From positions 1-40,425 of IMG/VR virus record IMGVR_UViG_3300006119_000022: a stretch of 40,425 nucleotides of DNA; one strand, given 5' to 3'. The notes under the pieces were generated by a model, which was not told the DNA's origin, did no database searches, and saw nothing but the letters and a program-made list of their open reading frames with translations. This document shows positions 24,906 to 36,990 of the stretch, one piece after another. The first letter of the stretch is position 1. The number at the start of each line of letters is the position of its first letter. This stretch comes from a virus. A program made the translations under genes and the position numbers.

Positions 24906-25982
24906 TTATGCGCCCATAACTAAAAATAACCCTGAAAAAAGGTCACCAATATCCACAAATGCTGTTCCAACAGATCCTTGTACACCTTGTGTTCCAATTC
25001 CTGTAGCGCCTTGTAAGCCTTGAACTCCTTGTACTCCTTGAGTTCCTTGAATTGCAGACCCTTGTACTCCCTGAGTTCCTTGGGGGCCAGTTGTTCCATC
25101 TGTTCCCTGTGTACCTGTAGAACCAGCAGTTCCCTGTACACCCTGTGTACCTGTTCCGATTACACCTTGAGTACCTTGGACACCCTGTAATCCTTGTGTT
25201 CCTTGGTAACCTTGCAATCCTGTTGCGCCTAATGTTCCTTGGGTACCTTGTGCACCTACCGAACCCGTTGCACCAACAGCACCCTGTACGCCTTGCGTAC
25301 CTGAGTAACCTTGTAATCCGTAAGGTCCTTGAGTTCCAATTGCTCCCTGCAAACCTTGTACACCTTGAACACCCTGTGTTCCAGATCCCATAGATCCCTG
25401 AGTTCCCAAAGAACCCTGTACACCTTGGGTTCCTTGAGTACCAGACCCAGTAGACCCCTGTATACCTTGGCTACCCGATGAGCCTTGCGCTCCTGAACTT
25501 CCTTGTGTTCCTTGAATGCCGTGACCAGCAATAATTCCTTGAACAGTGTTTTGTAACGAGTATAAAGTTGTTTGTAATGAGTATTCTTTTTGCGCCAAAG
25601 CAATCAAGGTTGCTGTTATGTCAACCTCTTGAGTTCCGTCATTTTTTGTTACTAAAACTATTTCGTGATTTATGTTGTTTAAACTGGTTGCATTAGATAG
25701 TGCTTTTAAATATAATTTTTTATTACTTCCTTGGTTTTGTCCAAAGGTACCTAACCAAATAGGATACTCAGGATCTCCGCCAATGTAAGCAACCCACACA
25801 CCCTGACCAATAACAGGAACATCAGGTGAGGTACTTGCAGGATCAATAGGCCAAGCCCAGTCAGTTACCTCTGACCCTGTAGTTTGTGGGATAGACAGAC
25901 GTAATCTACGTTGATGTTGTGGATCGTTGTTGTCCTGAACAACACCTCTATAGATTCCGTAATGTCTTTTAATATCATCCAC
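24906..25982 (-). CDS. Baseplate spike-type OB-fold protein with long collagen-like tail (358 aa)
   Basis: Residues 1-85 match the OB-fold domain of gp5/VgrG/gpV spike proteins (YGIYRGVVQDNNDPQHQRRL, PVIGQGVWVAYIGGDPEYPI, WLGTFG). A short coiled-coil part follows, then about 185 residues of collagen-like triplets, with Gln common in the third position (GTQGVQG repeats), and a brief hydrophobic C-terminus. The start is GTG 25982, adjoining the stop of baseplate J. A trimeric spike with a collagen-like fibre instead of a beta-helix needle is inferred. Confidence 0.75.
   Translation of the reverse strand: MDDIKRHYGIYRGVVQDNNDPQHQRRLRLSIPQTTGSEVTDWAWPIDPASTSPDVPVIGQGVWVAYIGGDPEYPIWLGTFGQNQGSNKKLYLKALSNATSLNNINHEIVLVTKNDGTQEVDITATLIALAQKEYSLQTTLYSLQNTVQGIIAGHGIQGTQGSSGAQGSSGSQGIQGSTGSGTQGTQGVQGSLGTQGSMGSGTQGVQGVQGLQGAIGTQGPYGLQGYSGTQGVQGAVGATGSVGAQGTQGTLGATGLQGYQGTQGLQGVQGTQGVIGTGTQGVQGTAGSTGTQGTDGTTGPQGTQGVQGSAIQGTQGVQGVQGLQGATGIGTQGVQGSVGTAFVDIGDLFSGLFLVMGA
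24970..25540 (-). repeat. Collagen-like Gly-X-Gln triplet repeat region
   Basis: Continuous 9-nt-period low-complexity DNA encodes Gly-X-Y triplets with frequent Gln, such as GTQGVQGTQG. The repeats vary at the nucleotide level but keep the triplet frame throughout, which shows selection on the protein. Confidence 0.85.
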
Positions 25983-29676: not shown

Positions 29677-31058
29677 TTTCCACCTGCTGCTGCTGTAGAT
29701 GCTGCGTTATAAAGTACTGAGTTGTCGTAGTAACGAGTGCATGTAATGTTTACAGTAGTAAATATTGGAACCATTCTCTCGTTAAAGATAGCATGGTTTA
29801 TGTCCAAAGAAGATACTCGAACAAGGTAACGAAGGTTTGCTCCCAAGTGTAACTCTACTGGAATTGGCATTAACCAACCTTTGTCCGCTGTAATGATGTT
29901 GCCTACACTCGATTTGTATTGTGAGTTATATCCTCCTGTAGCCTTAAATAAATACTCAAGGTCATACATAGTTCCACGCTCATAGATCAGACCTCGTTCA
30001 GAAGCCGACACAGTTTGTGGATACGGGGAAGTATTTCCAGTCAAAAACTCACCAGTTTTGTCTTTTATGTACATCATGTCTTCGATACGGTTGAGTATTA
30101 AAGAGAATGTAACTGTGCTGGCAAGAAGTCCATTACCAATTGCTGTAGCAATATCCGCACCAGACTGCTCAAACTGAGGAGAAAAACTTTCTACAATTCC
30201 CCAAGACATTCCCACAGAGGTTGGGTTGTAAAGAAACTTAAATCCATACGGAGTTGTATCAGCAGGTAACCCAGATGCCGCAGTTCCTTTGGTAAGTACG
30301 CTGGCATCAGCAGCCAAATTTTGGCTCATTTGAATGACGCCTTTGGCTCCTTTGAACTTACCATCTTTGTCTGGTTGCCAGGCCAACTGTGCATGGTCCC
30401 AGGCTCCTGGATTAGTGATAAGCATGTCATTTTTTGCGGACAATACTTGAGGTCCAAACTTCAAGTACGAAGATGAAGTCATTGGAGCGTTGTATGTGTA
30501 AGGCTTTGGATCACCCACAACTGCTGGTGGGGGCGTTCCTCCAGGTCCACCAGCCCCAGCACTAGTTACTGCGGGTGCAGGTTTTCCTGCAGCGTTTGCA
30601 GCCGTTGCTTTAGCCAATGCATCTTGATCTATTTTTAAAGTAGTTTTTGCAGTTTGTTCGGCTTGGTTAGCACTTGTTAAATCTGAGGTGGTTTGTTGTG
30701 CTTCTTTTACTACTGCTTGCCATTTGTTGTACGCTGCTTGTACTGATGTTTGGATACTGCTACTTAAAGTAGTTATATCTACAGTTCCTTTTGGATTGTT
30801 TACAGGTTCAGAGATGTTGTACTCGTGTAACAAACCAAGGTACAAGTTGTACTCTGTTTGTGCATACGTGTTTTCATCGTCTAGTTTGCTAACTAAATCA
30901 CTTACTTTTTTAACAGCAGCATCGTACGTAGTCTTTTGCGTTATGACTGCTTGAAAATCATTATTAAGGATTTGTTGATTTGCAGCAAGTTGAGCAGAAG
31001 ATAACCCAGTATTTGCTCCTGGTCTTGTAGTGTTAGGACTTACTTTTTTAGTACCCAT
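29673..31058 (-). CDS. CIS-tube-type tail/baseplate adaptor with N-terminal coiled coil (461 aa)
   Basis: The C-terminal half has the pattern of contractile injection system tube adaptor proteins: FKFLYNPTSVGMSWGIVES, TVTFSLILNRIEDM, YERGTMYDLEYLF, RYLVRVSSLDINHAIFNERM and PIFTTVNITCTRY. The first 170 residues are a long helical coiled coil followed by a Gly/Pro/Ala linker. In several systems this domain is fused to LysM; here LysM is a separate neighbouring gene. It likely connects tail tube and baseplate. Family placement is by pattern. Confidence 0.62.
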   Translation of the reverse strand: MGTKKVSPNTTRPGANTGLSSAQLAANQQILNNDFQAVITQKTTYDAAVKKVSDLVSKLDDENTYAQTEYNLYLGLLHEYNISEPVNNPKGTVDITTLSSSIQTSVQAAYNKWQAVVKEAQQTTSDLTSANQAEQTAKTTLKIDQDALAKATAANAAGKPAPAVTSAGAGGPGGTPPPAVVGDPKPYTYNAPMTSSSYLKFGPQVLSAKNDMLITNPGAWDHAQLAWQPDKDGKFKGAKGVIQMSQNLAADASVLTKGTAASGLPADTTPYGFKFLYNPTSVGMSWGIVESFSPQFEQSGADIATAIGNGLLASTVTFSLILNRIEDMMYIKDKTGEFLTGNTSPYPQTVSASERGLIYERGTMYDLEYLFKATGGYNSQYKSSVGNIITADKGWLMPIPVELHLGANLRYLVRVSSLDINHAIFNERMVPIFTTVNITCTRYYDNSVLYNAASTAAAGGK

Positions 31059-33799
31059 TATCTACTTCCCATCATGGAGATGCTGTTATTCTCTTCAAGA
31101 ATGCTCTGCACTTTTTTAGCAAACCTAACTGCTTCGTCTTGGGAAGCCTGTGCAATGTTCACTGTTATCTGAACATTAGTTGATCCTCCCCCTCCTCCAG
31201 AAGAAGGCATTGAAGCGCCAAATCCAGAAGTTCCACCGCCATAACCAGGTATTTGTGTTCCCCATGGAGAATGGTTAACTGCACTAAGAACTCCAGCAGT
31301 GTTGTTACCTGTAGATAGAGCACTTAAAATGGACTTGTAACGTCCATTGTTAATTGTGTCAATGGTTGCCTGCATTCCCTGATTAAAACTTACGTACGAT
31401 TCAACACCAACACTGTTGATAGGTACGGCCCCTGCTTCTGGTTGTGTTGTGTTTAGAGGATTGTAATGTGCAGAGTTATTCCACTGCCCACCTTCGTACG
31501 CCATCCACGTAGTAATAGCAGCAATATTTTGTTGTGTAACTGGTTTTCCTAGGTTAGTAAGAAATTGTTTTGCCCAATCTAATTTGCTGCCAGTAGCAAG
31601 GATTGTTCCTGGAGCGTTTACGCTACTTCCAGAAACTGTTTGTGGAGTTCCGCCTGTTCCTGTTAAAAATGCTGCTGGATCAACTGGGTTGTTGTGTCCT
31701 TTACGAACTTCAAAGTGAAGGTGAGGCCCAGTGACGTTACCCGATTGTCCAGACTTACCAATTTCTTGACCAGCAACTACTGTTTGTCCAATTTTTACTG
31801 ACTTACTTTGTAGGTGACCGTACAGTGTTTGGTAGCCGTTACCGTGATCAATTTGAACATACACACCAAAATCTGCGCCAGGAGAATCATCAAAGACAAT
31901 TCCATCAGCAACAGCCTTTACAGACGTTCCTACAGGAACTGCATAGTCATCACCTGTGTGGTAGTTCTTTGCTCCATTCCACATGCCTGGATCTTTTGCT
32001 CCATACATTGTGGTAGGTGCAACTCCAGGAATTGGAGAACTTAATGTTTGTTTTGTGCTTTGACCTGAGTATGGGTGAAGAGCACCCGTGTTTGCTGCTG
32101 GAGATGAGTATTGTCCTGGTGTTGCTTGCGCTTGAGAATACGCTCCACCTTTAGCACCAAACGATGCTCCAAATCCACCATAAGAACTTCCACCAGAACC
32201 AAAAAATCCAGCAACTCCACCGATCACGGTACCGATAACAGCGCCAGGAGCAGCACCTACGCCAAAGAATCCAGCACCAATACTTGCACCAATTAAAGCA
32301 CCAGCACCAGCACTAGCGGCAATACTTCCCCCACGAACTACATCTCTACCAGTACTTGTTTTGTTTAACCCTGTTGCATTTCCAAGTTCTTTTCCGCCTT
32401 GGCCCATAAGGTATCCCGCACCAGCAGCCGTTGTTGCACCTCCCGCTACTCGCCCAAGAACGCCTGCACTAGTTGATGCTATTCTTCCAGCACTAAGAAC
32501 TGATGAACCACTGCTGCCTATTGGTATTCCTAGTTTCTCTGCAGCAGCAAGGGCAACCATACCTTCTGCAATATTTTTAATGCCCATCGTAAATCCGCCA
32601 ATAAGTGAGGTAAGGGCTGAGCCTAACCCAGTTTGACCCAATCCTTGAAGATAGGCTTTTGCTTCAATTACTGACTGGCCAAACTGCGCCATCTTTTGAT
32701 TTACATCTGTAATAGTAGTTGCAGCGGCTTGGTACCCCTTGATCATAGAGTCTTGAGAAGCCTGCATTAAGTTTGTTTGAGATGTTGTTATTTGTTGCCC
32801 TGCAGCGTTAGGGTTTCCTGCTCCAGATAGCGTTGCTAGATCTGCGTTCTTTCCTTGTGCTAATAGCAAGAACTGTGCTTTAAAAAGTTGTTGTTGGTCT
32901 GGGGATAAGTTAAGGGCGTTTAAATCTGCGCCAGCAAGACCGTATTGCAAAGACTGTTGAACGGCATTTACGTTGCCTTTTCCACGTCCTTGAAAGATGC
33001 GATTAAAAAGTTGACTTGCAATTTGAGATTCAGAAAGTGGATTTCCCTGTTGATCAAACTGGGATATTCCATACTGATAAAGGTTTGCTCCCATAGCGCC
33101 AGTCTGTAATCCACCAATAGCGGTAGCAGCGGCTGCATTGCTCATATTAAATTGGCGGTATGCTCCACCAACTTCTCTTATGCTTTGTAGGTATGGACTG
33201 CTTCCTGGAGCATACCCGTACTGCTGAGTAAGGATGGCAGCAGCGGCTGCATCATCCCCAATACCTGAAACACCTCTTCCAAATCCTCCGCTAATTGCGC
33301 TAAGGGTTGAGGTCTGTAATTGCTTATATCCAAGACCAGTGGTTGAGTATTGTGAGACGGCGTAGTAGTTAGACGCACGAGCAATTGTGGCACCTAGATC
33401 AGGTCCTAGTGAATAAGCAGCACCTGCAACTCCTCCAGCAACTTGAGCAGCGCCACCAAGGATTGAGAACTTTGCCACAGTCGGAGACATCCACGGCATA
33501 GCGGTAGCGCTTGCACGTTGCTGTTGTGCTGCAGATTGAGGTTGCGAGGCTGGAACCATGTTCTCAGCCACGCCATTACCTGCTGTTGTAAAGTTAGCAC
33601 CGTCTGTACCAAGAGTAACTTTTGTACCTTTGGTAAGATTTTTTTGACCATTTTTTGTAATGGTCTTACGCATTGTGTCAGCCGCTGTTTGGGCAGGTGC
33701 AGAGATGTGTTTGATCGTGTCATTGATCTCGCTAAGAGTTTTAAGCGTGTCCTTAAGGGCGTCATTAAGTGACTTAACGCTCGTCACCATACTAGCCAT
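31058..33799 (-). CDS. Tail tape measure protein with M23 peptidase and lysozyme-like domains (913 aa)
   Basis: The first 400 residues are helical with long Gln/Ala-rich segments and a Gly-rich hydrophobic region (about 470-545, GAGALIGASIGAGFFGVGAA), typical of tape measures. Residues about 605-710 form an intact LytM/M23 peptidase (HTGDD, YGHLQ, GPHLHFEV). A lysozyme-like domain follows at about 745-860 (TTWMAYEGGQWNN, NPLNTT) with the EGG motif. The protein sets tail length and its lytic domains probably open the cell wall during DNA injection. ATG 33799 overlaps the end of the frameshifted chaperone frame. Confidence 0.9.
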   Translation of the reverse strand: MASMVTSVKSLNDALKDTLKTLSEINDTIKHISAPAQTAADTMRKTITKNGQKNLTKGTKVTLGTDGANFTTAGNGVAENMVPASQPQSAAQQQRASATAMPWMSPTVAKFSILGGAAQVAGGVAGAAYSLGPDLGATIARASNYYAVSQYSTTGLGYKQLQTSTLSAISGGFGRGVSGIGDDAAAAAILTQQYGYAPGSSPYLQSIREVGGAYRQFNMSNAAAATAIGGLQTGAMGANLYQYGISQFDQQGNPLSESQIASQLFNRIFQGRGKGNVNAVQQSLQYGLAGADLNALNLSPDQQQLFKAQFLLLAQGKNADLATLSGAGNPNAAGQQITTSQTNLMQASQDSMIKGYQAAATTITDVNQKMAQFGQSVIEAKAYLQGLGQTGLGSALTSLIGGFTMGIKNIAEGMVALAAAEKLGIPIGSSGSSVLSAGRIASTSAGVLGRVAGGATTAAGAGYLMGQGGKELGNATGLNKTSTGRDVVRGGSIAASAGAGALIGASIGAGFFGVGAAPGAVIGTVIGGVAGFFGSGGSSYGGFGASFGAKGGAYSQAQATPGQYSSPAANTGALHPYSGQSTKQTLSSPIPGVAPTTMYGAKDPGMWNGAKNYHTGDDYAVPVGTSVKAVADGIVFDDSPGADFGVYVQIDHGNGYQTLYGHLQSKSVKIGQTVVAGQEIGKSGQSGNVTGPHLHFEVRKGHNNPVDPAAFLTGTGGTPQTVSGSSVNAPGTILATGSKLDWAKQFLTNLGKPVTQQNIAAITTWMAYEGGQWNNSAHYNPLNTTQPEAGAVPINSVGVESYVSFNQGMQATIDTINNGRYKSILSALSTGNNTAGVLSAVNHSPWGTQIPGYGGGTSGFGASMPSSGGGGGSTNVQITVNIAQASQDEAVRFAKKVQSILEENNSISMMGSR

Positions 33800-33959
33800 C
33801 TGGACTCCTTATCGCTTTTGCCTTGGCTAGTTCTAGCCAATTCTTTCTTTCTCTAGAGGACATCTCTTTTATCTCTGTGAGATTCCAACTTCCGTATATC
33901 TCTGATATAGCCGCCCATTCAGCGAATAACTGAACGTATGGAATGATATTAGAATTGAA
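33792..33959 (-). CDS. Tail assembly chaperone, frameshift extension (GT-like part)
   Basis: A frame shifted by +1 (or -2) relative to the 269-residue gene is open from just upstream of that gene's stop codon to TAG at 33792-33794. It encodes about 55 residues (NIIPYVQLFAEWAAISEIYG, then TEIKEMSSRERKNWLELAKA). There is no ATG, GTG or TTG near its beginning; the only ATG is 23 codons from the end. The stop overlaps the tape measure start by 8 nt. The EIKEM..RER..WLE pattern is typical of chaperone C-termini just upstream of tape measures. Probably made as a fusion by programmed frameshifting. Confidence 0.68.
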   Translation of the reverse strand, partial: FNSNIIPYVQLFAEWAAISEIYGSWNLTEIKEMSSRERKNWLELAKAKAIRSPDG

Positions 33960-34758
33960 ACAACGTACCCAAATTAATGGATATCGTTACCTCACTTCCG
34001 CAATCAGGGCATTCCATGGTTACATCATCAAACTGTGGACCAGGTACTCGTTTGTTAATTTCTGAAATGATCTTTTTACGATCTACAATTGGAAGATTTT
34101 GAACTTGGAGTTTGCTGTATACAGGTGAACCGTTAATCTTTAACACTGTCTTCTCAAGAAGAATCGTGTTCATTTCTGCAGGAGTTTTATCTGCATTATT
34201 GATCAATTCTTTTTGAGCAATACCAGTTGGAAGTTGTACTTCAATCTCTCCAGCCTTACCACTAACAGTAAAGACTCTGTCTCCCACAGGATCTGTAAGA
34301 ATCTTTGTCTTAATATCTTCGTTAATATCTACTGTTACATTTTTAAAGTCATTACAGCCTGAACAAAAGATAGACATATCTGTTGTTGAACCAAATGTTG
34401 CTTTCAAGATACCAAGAAGAATTGCATCTCGATCTCCTGTCAACATGTGATCAAGGATCTTATCGTCAGCCTTTAGGTCTCCAACTTTGACAGTTCCTCG
34501 TTCTAAGATAGTTAGAAGAGCCTTGCCAACATTTGCAGCCTTTGAAATAACTTCTTCATCTCGACCGTTCAACTCACGTACCTCTGCGGTCTGTAGCAAC
34601 TCCCCAGCGGTTGAAATGTAACCGCCAGGAAGTTGTACAGTCGTATCTGAAGGAGCAATTATTGTTGGGTTGATATCCTTAGGAGACTCTTTAAGAACAT
34701 CCTTAATTAAGTTGTTTGCCAAGTCTGGGTTAGAGACTGCACTAATTGTGTTCGACAT
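33949..34758 (-). CDS. Tail assembly chaperone, N-terminal product (T4 gp26-like, 269 aa)
   Basis: ATG 34758 has AAAGGA upstream. The product has a Gln/Leu/Glu-rich start, VQLPGGYI, TAEVRELNGRDEEVISKA, and two Cys pairs: CSGC in the middle and CPDCG near the C-terminus. This matches the T4 gp26-type baseplate/chaperone family. It lies between the tube and tape measure genes, the classical position of tail assembly chaperones. The final codons TTG TTT CAA TTC TAA offer a slip site: TTT to TTC would enter the extension frame. Confidence 0.75.
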   Translation of the reverse strand: MSNTISAVSNPDLANNLIKDVLKESPKDINPTIIAPSDTTVQLPGGYISTAGELLQTAEVRELNGRDEEVISKAANVGKALLTILERGTVKVGDLKADDKILDHMLTGDRDAILLGILKATFGSTTDMSIFCSGCNDFKNVTVDINEDIKTKILTDPVGDRVFTVSGKAGEIEVQLPTGIAQKELINNADKTPAEMNTILLEKTVLKINGSPVYSKLQVQNLPIVDRKKIISEINKRVPGPQFDDVTMECPDCGSEVTISINLGTLFQF

Positions 34759-35472: not shown

Positions 35473-36990
35473 TTACGCCAGGGTCATTTGACTGAGGTTA
35501 AGTACTACAAACTCAGCAGGGTACTCAAGGGCAACGCCAACTTGGATGTTGACAATGCCATTTTGAATTGACGATGCTGTGTTGTTTGTTGCATCGCAGA
35601 GCACGTAAAAGGCTTGGGCTGGTGTTCCACCACGAAGTCCACCTTGGTTACGATAGTCGTTTAAGAATGAGGTAAACGCGTTTGTGATACGAGACCATAG
35701 GCGCTCATCGTTGTTCTCAAACAATGCGATTTGAGCAATACTCTTTAGGTTTTGCTCAATGTAGATAAGTGAACGGCGCATGTTTACATATCGGTTGGCT
35801 GTTCCATCTTGTAGGAGAGTACGAGCACCCATGACTACAACGCCAGCACCAGGAATTTGGCGAATAGCGTTTACTGGAGCAACTGAACCAGTTCCTGCTG
35901 ATGGAAGTCCCAAGTTAAGGTTGTCAAGTTCAGTAGAGGTAAACGCACGCTCTAGTGAAATAACGCCAGTAAGTGGGAAGTTCAAACCTGCTGGAGCCTT
36001 AGATACACTCTTTGTGGCGTCTGTAGCAAGATACAGACCAGCAACTGCTGCTGATGGACCGACCAAACGGATTGCACCACTACCACGTCCAACAGGGTCG
36101 CTGATGTAGGTGTGTGGGTAGTACACTGCGGTATGGCTGCTTGCAGTCAATCCCTGTGCGTAGGTAATTGCAGCATCTACAGTTTCTCCTGCAGGAGTTT
36201 CTGCAACAAAGAAACCATTGTTTGATGCTGCCCAAGCAATTGCGTCGTTGATTACGCTGACAACACCAGAAGCAAGGATGTCATTGATGTTAGGAATGAA
36301 CATAACAAGGGCACGGTTTAGAGACGAGAACTCATTCCAAACAGATGCGCTTGTTGATGCATAAGAGGTGTAATCCCCACCAACAACTGCTGATCCATCT
36401 GATCCACCTGTTAGTGGGTAAACTGCAAGAACAGGTGTTCCTGAAGCAAGATTACTAACTTTGATTACAGATGCAGCAGTGTTGTTGATAACTGTTCCAG
36501 CATAACTAGAAGAAGTTGAGTCACCAAATACAAGGTTCTCATAGCGCTCAAGAAGAACATCCCCTGATACACCTTCTTTATAAACCTCTACTGTGTAGGT
36601 GCTAGATACTGATCCAGCCTTAACGTTGATGCGTAGGTTGTTACCGTCAGCACCACGGTTCTTTGCGGTGAATGTAGCGACTACAACGTTTCCTGATGTC
36701 TCAACATCAACTGTTGCAGCAGCAGCATCGCTGTGAAGGATACGCTTTACGTAAAGTTCACGTCCTCCGTTATTAAAGAATTGAGCGACGCCAAACACTG
36801 CAGGGAATGTAGTGCTGTAGCCACCAAACTTTGAAGTAAATTCTGTCCAAGATTGAACGCGAGTCACAATCTCAGGACCTTGTGCAAATGGGGCAGCGAT
36901 TGCACCAGCAGCACTTGTAGCAACTCCTTGAGCGAGAGGTGCTGGAAGTAGTGTCTCTGTTAGGTAGACACCTGCACGACCGTAAGTCAT
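35473..36990 (-). CDS. Contractile tail sheath protein (505 aa)
   Basis: The N-terminus GRAGVYLTETLLPAP and the segment GPEIVTRVQSWTEFTSKFGG then FFNNGGRELYVKRI are typical of sheath proteins. The C-terminal part has the conserved NAIRQIPGAGVVVMGARTL and the terminal strand region EYPAEFVVLNLSQM that mediates subunit exchange. It forms the outer contractile layer around the tube. ATG 36990 has AGGAG. Confidence 0.95.
   Translation of the reverse strand: MTYGRAGVYLTETLLPAPLAQGVATSAAGAIAAPFAQGPEIVTRVQSWTEFTSKFGGYSTTFPAVFGVAQFFNNGGRELYVKRILHSDAAAATVDVETSGNVVVATFTAKNRGADGNNLRINVKAGSVSSTYTVEVYKEGVSGDVLLERYENLVFGDSTSSSYAGTVINNTAASVIKVSNLASGTPVLAVYPLTGGSDGSAVVGGDYTSYASTSASVWNEFSSLNRALVMFIPNINDILASGVVSVINDAIAWAASNNGFFVAETPAGETVDAAITYAQGLTASSHTAVYYPHTYISDPVGRGSGAIRLVGPSAAVAGLYLATDATKSVSKAPAGLNFPLTGVISLERAFTSTELDNLNLGLPSAGTGSVAPVNAIRQIPGAGVVVMGARTLLQDGTANRYVNMRRSLIYIEQNLKSIAQIALFENNDERLWSRITNAFTSFLNDYRNQGGLRGGTPAQAFYVLCDATNNTASSIQNGIVNIQVGVALEYPAEFVVLNLSQMTLA

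Follow-up and report, generated by a model that had tools for sequence, protein, structure and literature searches.

A predicted +1 frameshift on a conserved UUU_C site in T4 gp26-type tail assembly chaperone genes

Introduction

In phages lambda and HK97, the tail assembly chaperone (TAC) gene lies between the genes for the tail tube and the tape measure and encodes a short form, G, overlapped by a second frame without a shared start; a -1 shift on a heptamer joins the two as GT. The same position and layout are found in the window analyzed here, the 40,425-base linear virus record IMGVR_UViG_3300006119_000022, which may be a genome fragment. As judged from comparison of sequences, a chaperone gene of the T4 gp26 type in this window very likely yields two products, through a +1 slip on UUU_C rather than a -1 slip on a heptamer.

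Statements on the literature refer to the covered parts of the papers cited. A 2016 review treats T4 as the exception to tail-chaperone frameshifting (PMC5009743), and T4 gp26 is listed elsewhere as a hub assembly chaperone (PMC3004832). For T4-like TAC genes with poly-T -1 sites, PMC12846349 cites Vladimirov, Gautam and Davidson (Virology 2022); the reading of T4 gp26 and gp51 as a two-gene version of the system has very probably been published in that study, which might also cover +1 cases. Shifts in the +1 direction are described for tail genes of the haloarchaeal myovirus HSTV-2 and of Listeria phage PSA, the latter differing from the window in its site, CCC_UGA, and in the gene concerned, tail shaft rather than chaperone (PMC5009743). 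In bacteria, UUU_Ynn is especially prone to +1 slippage even without a stop codon (PMC5009743). The PA-X frameshift of influenza occurs at UUU_CGU, and CGN is also favored at putative sites of several other viruses (PMC3498833), while UUU_CGN is the amalgavirus motif (PMC5052127). According to the PRFect paper, no general motif for forward frameshifts has been identified (PMC10885494).

Few conserved sets of +1 frameshifts exist, and their motifs are difficult to detect. Frameshifting in tail chaperone genes is classical, and its occurrence in the T4-type family is probably known; what is new here is a lineage-wide +1 version on UUU_Y. No description of +1 frameshifting in the gp26-type family is present in the literature covered, and the +1 version is unrecognized in the five Streptomyces phage records inspected.

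Results and discussion

Two overlapping frames at the end of the chaperone gene

The 269-amino-acid gene terminates in TTG TTT CAA TTC TAA (UUG_UUU_CAA_UUC_UAA). The +1 frame is open from 35 nucleotides (nt) before the first base of this stop to a TAG at 33794-33792, with no ATG, GTG or TTG ahead of its WNL motif, and reading TTT(C) as a single step gives a fusion of 321 amino acids. The zero-frame UUU is followed by a pyrimidine, so that +1 re-pairing is possible. A sequence-only reading of the window had claimed this gene end, an open +1 frame without any plausible start, and an overlap of its TAG with the tape measure start; its coordinates and statements were all correct, and the observation is confirmed as real. 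The features concerned are the following.

33949..34758, minus strand: zero-frame tail assembly chaperone (TAC-N, "G"), 269 amino acids, T4 gp26-like, from the open reading frame (ORF), PF12322, PHROG 150 and the fold model
33957..33960, minus strand: predicted slip site UUU_C, codon 267 and the next base; in-frame TTTC, 100 of 100 loci
33949..33951, minus strand: zero-frame TAA stop, 9 nt past the first base of the slip codon
33795..33956, minus strand: +1-frame C-terminal domain ("T"), 54 codons, leading to the predicted 321-amino-acid fusion TAC-NC
33792..33794, minus strand: +1-frame TAG stop, overlapping the first tape measure codons
33988..33993, minus strand: GAGGTA, Shine-Dalgarno-like, 28 to 33 nt upstream of the slip codon
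34778..35455, minus strand: tail tube protein (PF06841 gp19, E = 7e-25)
31058..33799, minus strand: putative tape measure protein, 913 amino acids, with an M23 peptidase domain (PF01551) at residues 613-708

The zero-frame product matches PF12322, the T4 gp26 family (E = 7e-10; 39.4 bits against a cut-off of 24.5), and PHROG 150, baseplate hub. Its AlphaFold2 model, built from 40 aligned sequences with a mean predicted local distance difference test score of 86.6, matches viral models labeled as T4-like hub assembly proteins. Among Protein Data Bank (PDB) structures, the best match of the model is 2ob9, the HK97 TAC, with a Foldseek probability of 0.98 but an E value of 0.07; in VIA, the same entry has Z = 6.8 and a root-mean-square deviation of 3.5 over 90 of 104 residues, with the next entry at Z = 3.3, and Z values below 8 can reflect a common arrangement. 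Sequence searches of PDB chains with the family profile or with T4 gp51 gave no matches up to E = 1. The modeled resemblance of the short form to the HK97 chaperone fold is only suggestive; it agrees with the position of the gene and with the assignment of T4 gp26 to the hub assembly chaperones (PMC3004832). Unlike the lambda and HK97 proteins, the window protein belongs to the gp26 type and has two CxxC motifs. A chaperone role and a G/GT-type fusion, as proposed in the sequence-only reading, are both supported by the comparison.

Conservation of the UUU_C site and the direction of the shift

The site was followed through three sources of related loci: the best 80 of 107 stretches found to encode relatives in a first scan, 16 further loci from a scan with the protein of Streptomyces phage BRock (BRock itself included), and the loci of five isolated Streptomyces phages (BRock, LuckySocke, GiJojo, Alone3 and pSt2308). 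Together with the window, 102 loci were examined, of which 100, partly redundant and comprising 62 distinct sequences, have a readable gene end; L074 and L104, which lack the gene end, and L017, in which the extension is cut, were left out of the clade counts. All these loci are related to one another, and the counts below are not independent trials.

An in-frame TTTC is present near the gene end in all 100 loci of the window, its clade and the Streptomyces phage relatives, which places a conserved slippery site at the overlap of the two frames, as in G/GT genes. From its first base to the stop there are 9 nt in 80 loci, namely in all 80 of the window clade, and 12 nt in the other 20, and the codon after TTT is CGN or CAR in every case. 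Among representatives sharing less than 85% identity, the Phe codon at the site is TTT in 33 of 33, whereas elsewhere in these genes Phe is encoded by TTT and TTC in ratios of 111:40 for the window clade and 42:52 for the Streptomyces clade. The +1 frame of many relatives opens just 17 nt before the stop, which confines the shift to about six codons; within that stretch, UUU_C is the re-pairable site common to all. The tRNA-Phe pairs by wobble with UUU and fully with UUC. The comparison supports what was put forward from the window alone, namely that tRNA-Phe slips from UUU to UUC and that the shift is +1. That direction had been called unusual, which holds for frameshifts in general; within this gp26-type family, the site appears, on sequence grounds, to be lineage-wide and its direction nothing out of the ordinary.

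The same frame would be reached by a slip of -2, which the sequence-only reading had offered as an alternative and for which there is precedent in the tail chaperone gene of phage Mu (PMC5009743); moreover, the TTT TTT T found in the environmental clade described below would permit P-site re-pairing after a -2 step. In 99 of the 100 window and Streptomyces loci, however, such a step would move tRNA-Phe onto UGU, UAU or UCU; TTT stands ahead of the slip codon in a single locus only, and UUU_C is invariant, as a +1 shift requires. The -2 alternative is accordingly disfavored and improbable, and the +1 direction is supported.

The +1 frame encodes a conserved protein domain

Past the slip codon, the +1 frame runs for at least 48 codons without a stop in 61 of 61 distinct sequences of the window and Streptomyces clades. 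The -1 frame of the same 61 sequences is open for a median of 15 codons and at most 29, and a -1 extension was rejected for the window clade on this basis. The +1 domain has a median ratio of nonsynonymous to synonymous differences (pN/pS) of 0.27 in both clades, from 193 window-clade pairs, of which 99% lie below 1, and 16 Streptomyces-clade pairs; the corresponding values for the final 300 nt of the zero frame are 0.20 and 0.27. Homologs of the domain are found in Streptomyces phages and in the environmental clade. The +1 domain therefore evolves as a protein, under selection.

A domain under selection could also be a separate small protein with a non-standard start of its own or with re-initiated translation. 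Four Streptomyces phage records in GenBank annotate it in this way: in BRock (L082, 4842-5024), LuckySocke, GiJojo and Alone3, the extension appears as a separate hypothetical protein, so that a free-standing gene is annotated in L083, L085 and L087 as well as in L082, and in pSt2308 it is unannotated. Furthermore, at least one ATG, GTG or TTG lies in frame before the W(T/S)L motif in 36 of the 61 distinct sequences, and ATC and ATT codons occur near the zero-frame stop in the window. In the remaining 25 sequences, however, no ATG, GTG or TTG precedes the motif, and no start position is common to the 36 (the motif pattern is missing in two of the 61, for which the whole frame was scanned). The annotated start in BRock falls inside the conserved domain, the similarity between relatives continues upstream as far as the slip codon, and an invariant UUU_C would be superfluous for a separate gene. 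Both observations that could have spoken against a fusion, a separate start shared by the relatives or stops in their extension frame, are thus lacking: no start codon is common to them, and the frame runs without early stops. A separate protein is improbable, and with the fusion as the preferred reading, the annotation can be corrected: a tail protein has been hidden as a hypothetical gene in four of the five Streptomyces phage records and left unannotated in the fifth.

An environmental clade with a longer U-run

A scan with more distant homologs found relatives encoded in at least 596 stretches, and the 80 best were used; 6 of these are cut by a contig end, leaving 74 with complete ends. 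All 74 have a homologous domain in the +1 frame. The slip region reads TTT TTT T(GG/AC/AT) CCT in 71 of them, TTT CTT TGG CCT in two and TTC TTT TAC CCT in one. No other in-frame TTTTTTT was found within the genes of 56 environmental representatives. In these 56, which are related so that the counts are not independent events, the U-run is preceded by C (27), G (25) or A (4) and never by U, whereas U accounts for 38.6% of the third positions of those genes and G+C for 21.6%. A U at this place would create the -1 heptamer U_UUU_UUU, and its absence fits selection for +1. Searches of downstream ORFs at four environmental loci against Pfam (and at three of these also against PHROGs) gave no tape measure match; the role of the downstream ORF at these loci is assigned from size and position. 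At L138, the nearest upstream ORF is not a tube gene.

The seven consecutive T residues of most environmental relatives could suggest that the frame is changed by transcriptional slippage on the U-run. The window has just three T residues before the C, too short a run for such slippage, yet the frames stand in the same relation, and this explanation is very improbable. A sequencing or assembly error, or a decayed gene, has nothing in its favor beyond the frame break itself and is most unlikely, as the identical site recurs in seven other, near-identical contigs (at least 99.6% protein identity) and the same layout is kept down to approximately 35% protein identity, in isolated and completely sequenced phages.

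Proposed mechanism and points against it

Simple slippage of tRNA-Phe in the P site, on UUU_C, is the likely mechanism. Most ribosomes would end at UAA and release the 269-amino-acid short form, which is expected, by analogy, to coat the tape measure protein. In a minority, tRNA-Phe in the P site on UUU would re-pair one base downstream on UUC while CAA waits in the A site, and translation in the +1 frame would then give the 321-amino-acid long form, the extra domain of which is expected to recruit tail tube subunits. We infer the slip, its direction and its efficiency; the chaperone roles and the stoichiometry of the two forms would follow those of lambda G and GT.

Two candidate stimulators of the shift were considered. 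For RNA structure downstream of the site, there was no clear signal among the 33 representatives. In the release factor 2 (RF2) gene, the spacing from the Shine-Dalgarno sequence to the slip site is 3 nt; RF2-like stimulation was not accepted because GAGGT lies 28 to 33 nt upstream of the slip codon. Codon -11 reads GAG in every representative, 23 of 23 from the window clade and 10 of 10 from the Streptomyces clade, and GGAGG occurs at a similar distance in several environmental relatives.

Several observations weigh against a +1 slip producing a chaperone fusion across this family. No product, reporter or ribosome profile for this frameshift was found in the literature covered. The 80 nt downstream of the site hold no clear RNA structure, with a mean z of approximately -1 in the 33 representatives, two of which are near -3.9. 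The A-site codon is not a stop, which leaves a ribosome pause unexplained, and the conserved GAGGT, 28 to 33 nt upstream, is likewise without explanation. The review cited above for gp26 as a hub assembly chaperone mentions, too, some studies that put it in the hub itself (PMC3004832). Among the more distant relatives treated below, RM378 has an open +1 frame after TTT TTT TGG but no match to the T-domain profile, the match of the -1 domain of Atu_ph07 to this profile is weak (E = 0.13), and in KVP40 and P-SSM2, an ATG lies 2 to 5 nt past the zero-frame stop, making a separate start possible.

The same two products by +1, -1 or two genes

PF12322 is matched by the window protein and, over the whole model, by both T4 gp26 and gp51; gp51 leaves a tail of 48 residues. 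In profile comparison, gp51 aligns with the fusion through its C-terminus (P = 2.5e-9). With hhalign, the gp51 tail alone, these last 48 residues, aligns with the +1 domain at P = 2.5e-5, with none of 200 column shuffles as good, whereas gp26 gives no alignment with the +1 domain (P = 0.46); these P values are for single pairs, with the column shuffles as control. T4 differs from the window in that the short and long forms are two genes, without a frameshift. These findings support viewing gp26 as the counterpart, in T4-type phages, of lambda chaperone G.

PF12322 was matched in 24 of the 26 records searched and in none of 14 control genomes; no profile match was found in immuto or Mel-JY01, whose assignment to the family comes from tblastn. 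Two PF12322 genes are present in each of eight T4-type records. A single one is present in Syn9, P-SSM2, HTVC008M, KVP40 and eleven others outside the window; the window, which may be a fragment, has one gene (two matched pieces), and the complete record of BRock also has one. In RB43 (L199) and RCIP0002 (L200), the two PF12322 genes stand in tandem on one strand, whereas the T4 26/51 pair is divergent.

In Syn9 (L206), P-SSM2 (L207), HTVC008M (L208) and KVP40 (L209), a similar domain lies in the -1 frame after T_TTT_TTY. It aligns both to the gp51 tail (P = 3.5e-11) and to the +1 domain (P = 1.8e-11), in each case with none of 100 shuffles as good. Nine distant phage records were also compared: seven have the extension in +1 (SP-15, LIS04, GXN1, Mel-JY01, immuto, LR756508 and RM378) and two, Atu_ph07 and LR756511, have it in -1, both after T_TTT_TTC. 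The -1 domain of LR756511 matches the T-domain profile at E = 9.5e-7; the matches of the six records other than RM378, Atu_ph07 and LR756511 are circular, their sequences being already in the profile. Single-protein scans with SP-15 and Atu_ph07 recovered only themselves. The exo-T4 phages Syn9, P-SSM2, HTVC008M and KVP40, together with Atu_ph07 and LR756511, share with the window the family, the place at the Phe-Phe codons and a similar C-terminal domain; they differ in shifting, by prediction, -1 after U_UUU_UUY rather than +1 after UUU_C.

On balance, and with only slightly more confidence than doubt, the gp26-type family can be viewed as a natural series whose members arrive at the same two products through +1 slippage, -1 slippage or two genes, with the direction set by the base ahead of the Phe codons: +1 where a non-U base precedes UUU_UUU_U, and -1 where U precedes UUU_UUY. 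The +1 version on UUU_Y would then be widespread in environmental myophages and, if so, among the largest conserved sets of +1 programmed frameshifts. With the relatives of the environmental clade, at least 596, and the -1 and two-gene homologs, the rules of direction and efficiency become directly testable.

The tetranucleotide of the window is also that of PA-X and the amalgaviruses, and the favored next codon is similar, CGN there and CGN or CAR here. Those systems work on eukaryotic ribosomes and in unrelated genes, and the likeness would be convergence.

Gene order in the window

Along the minus strand, the sheath gene (35473-36990) is followed by tube, the 269-amino-acid chaperone gene and tape measure, so that the chaperone gene sits between the tail tube (PF06841) and the putative tape measure, the position of G/GT. 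The tape measure gene starts at ATGGCTAG, with its ATG at 33799-33797, and the +1-frame TAG falls within its first codons. PHROG tape measure matches are confined to the peptidase region, and the remainder of the assignment (31058..33799) comes from position and length. Farther along the same strand, at 24906-25982, the window encodes a protein resembling baseplate spikes (Phage_base_V), with an additional match to collagen triple-helix repeats (E = 4.6e-22).

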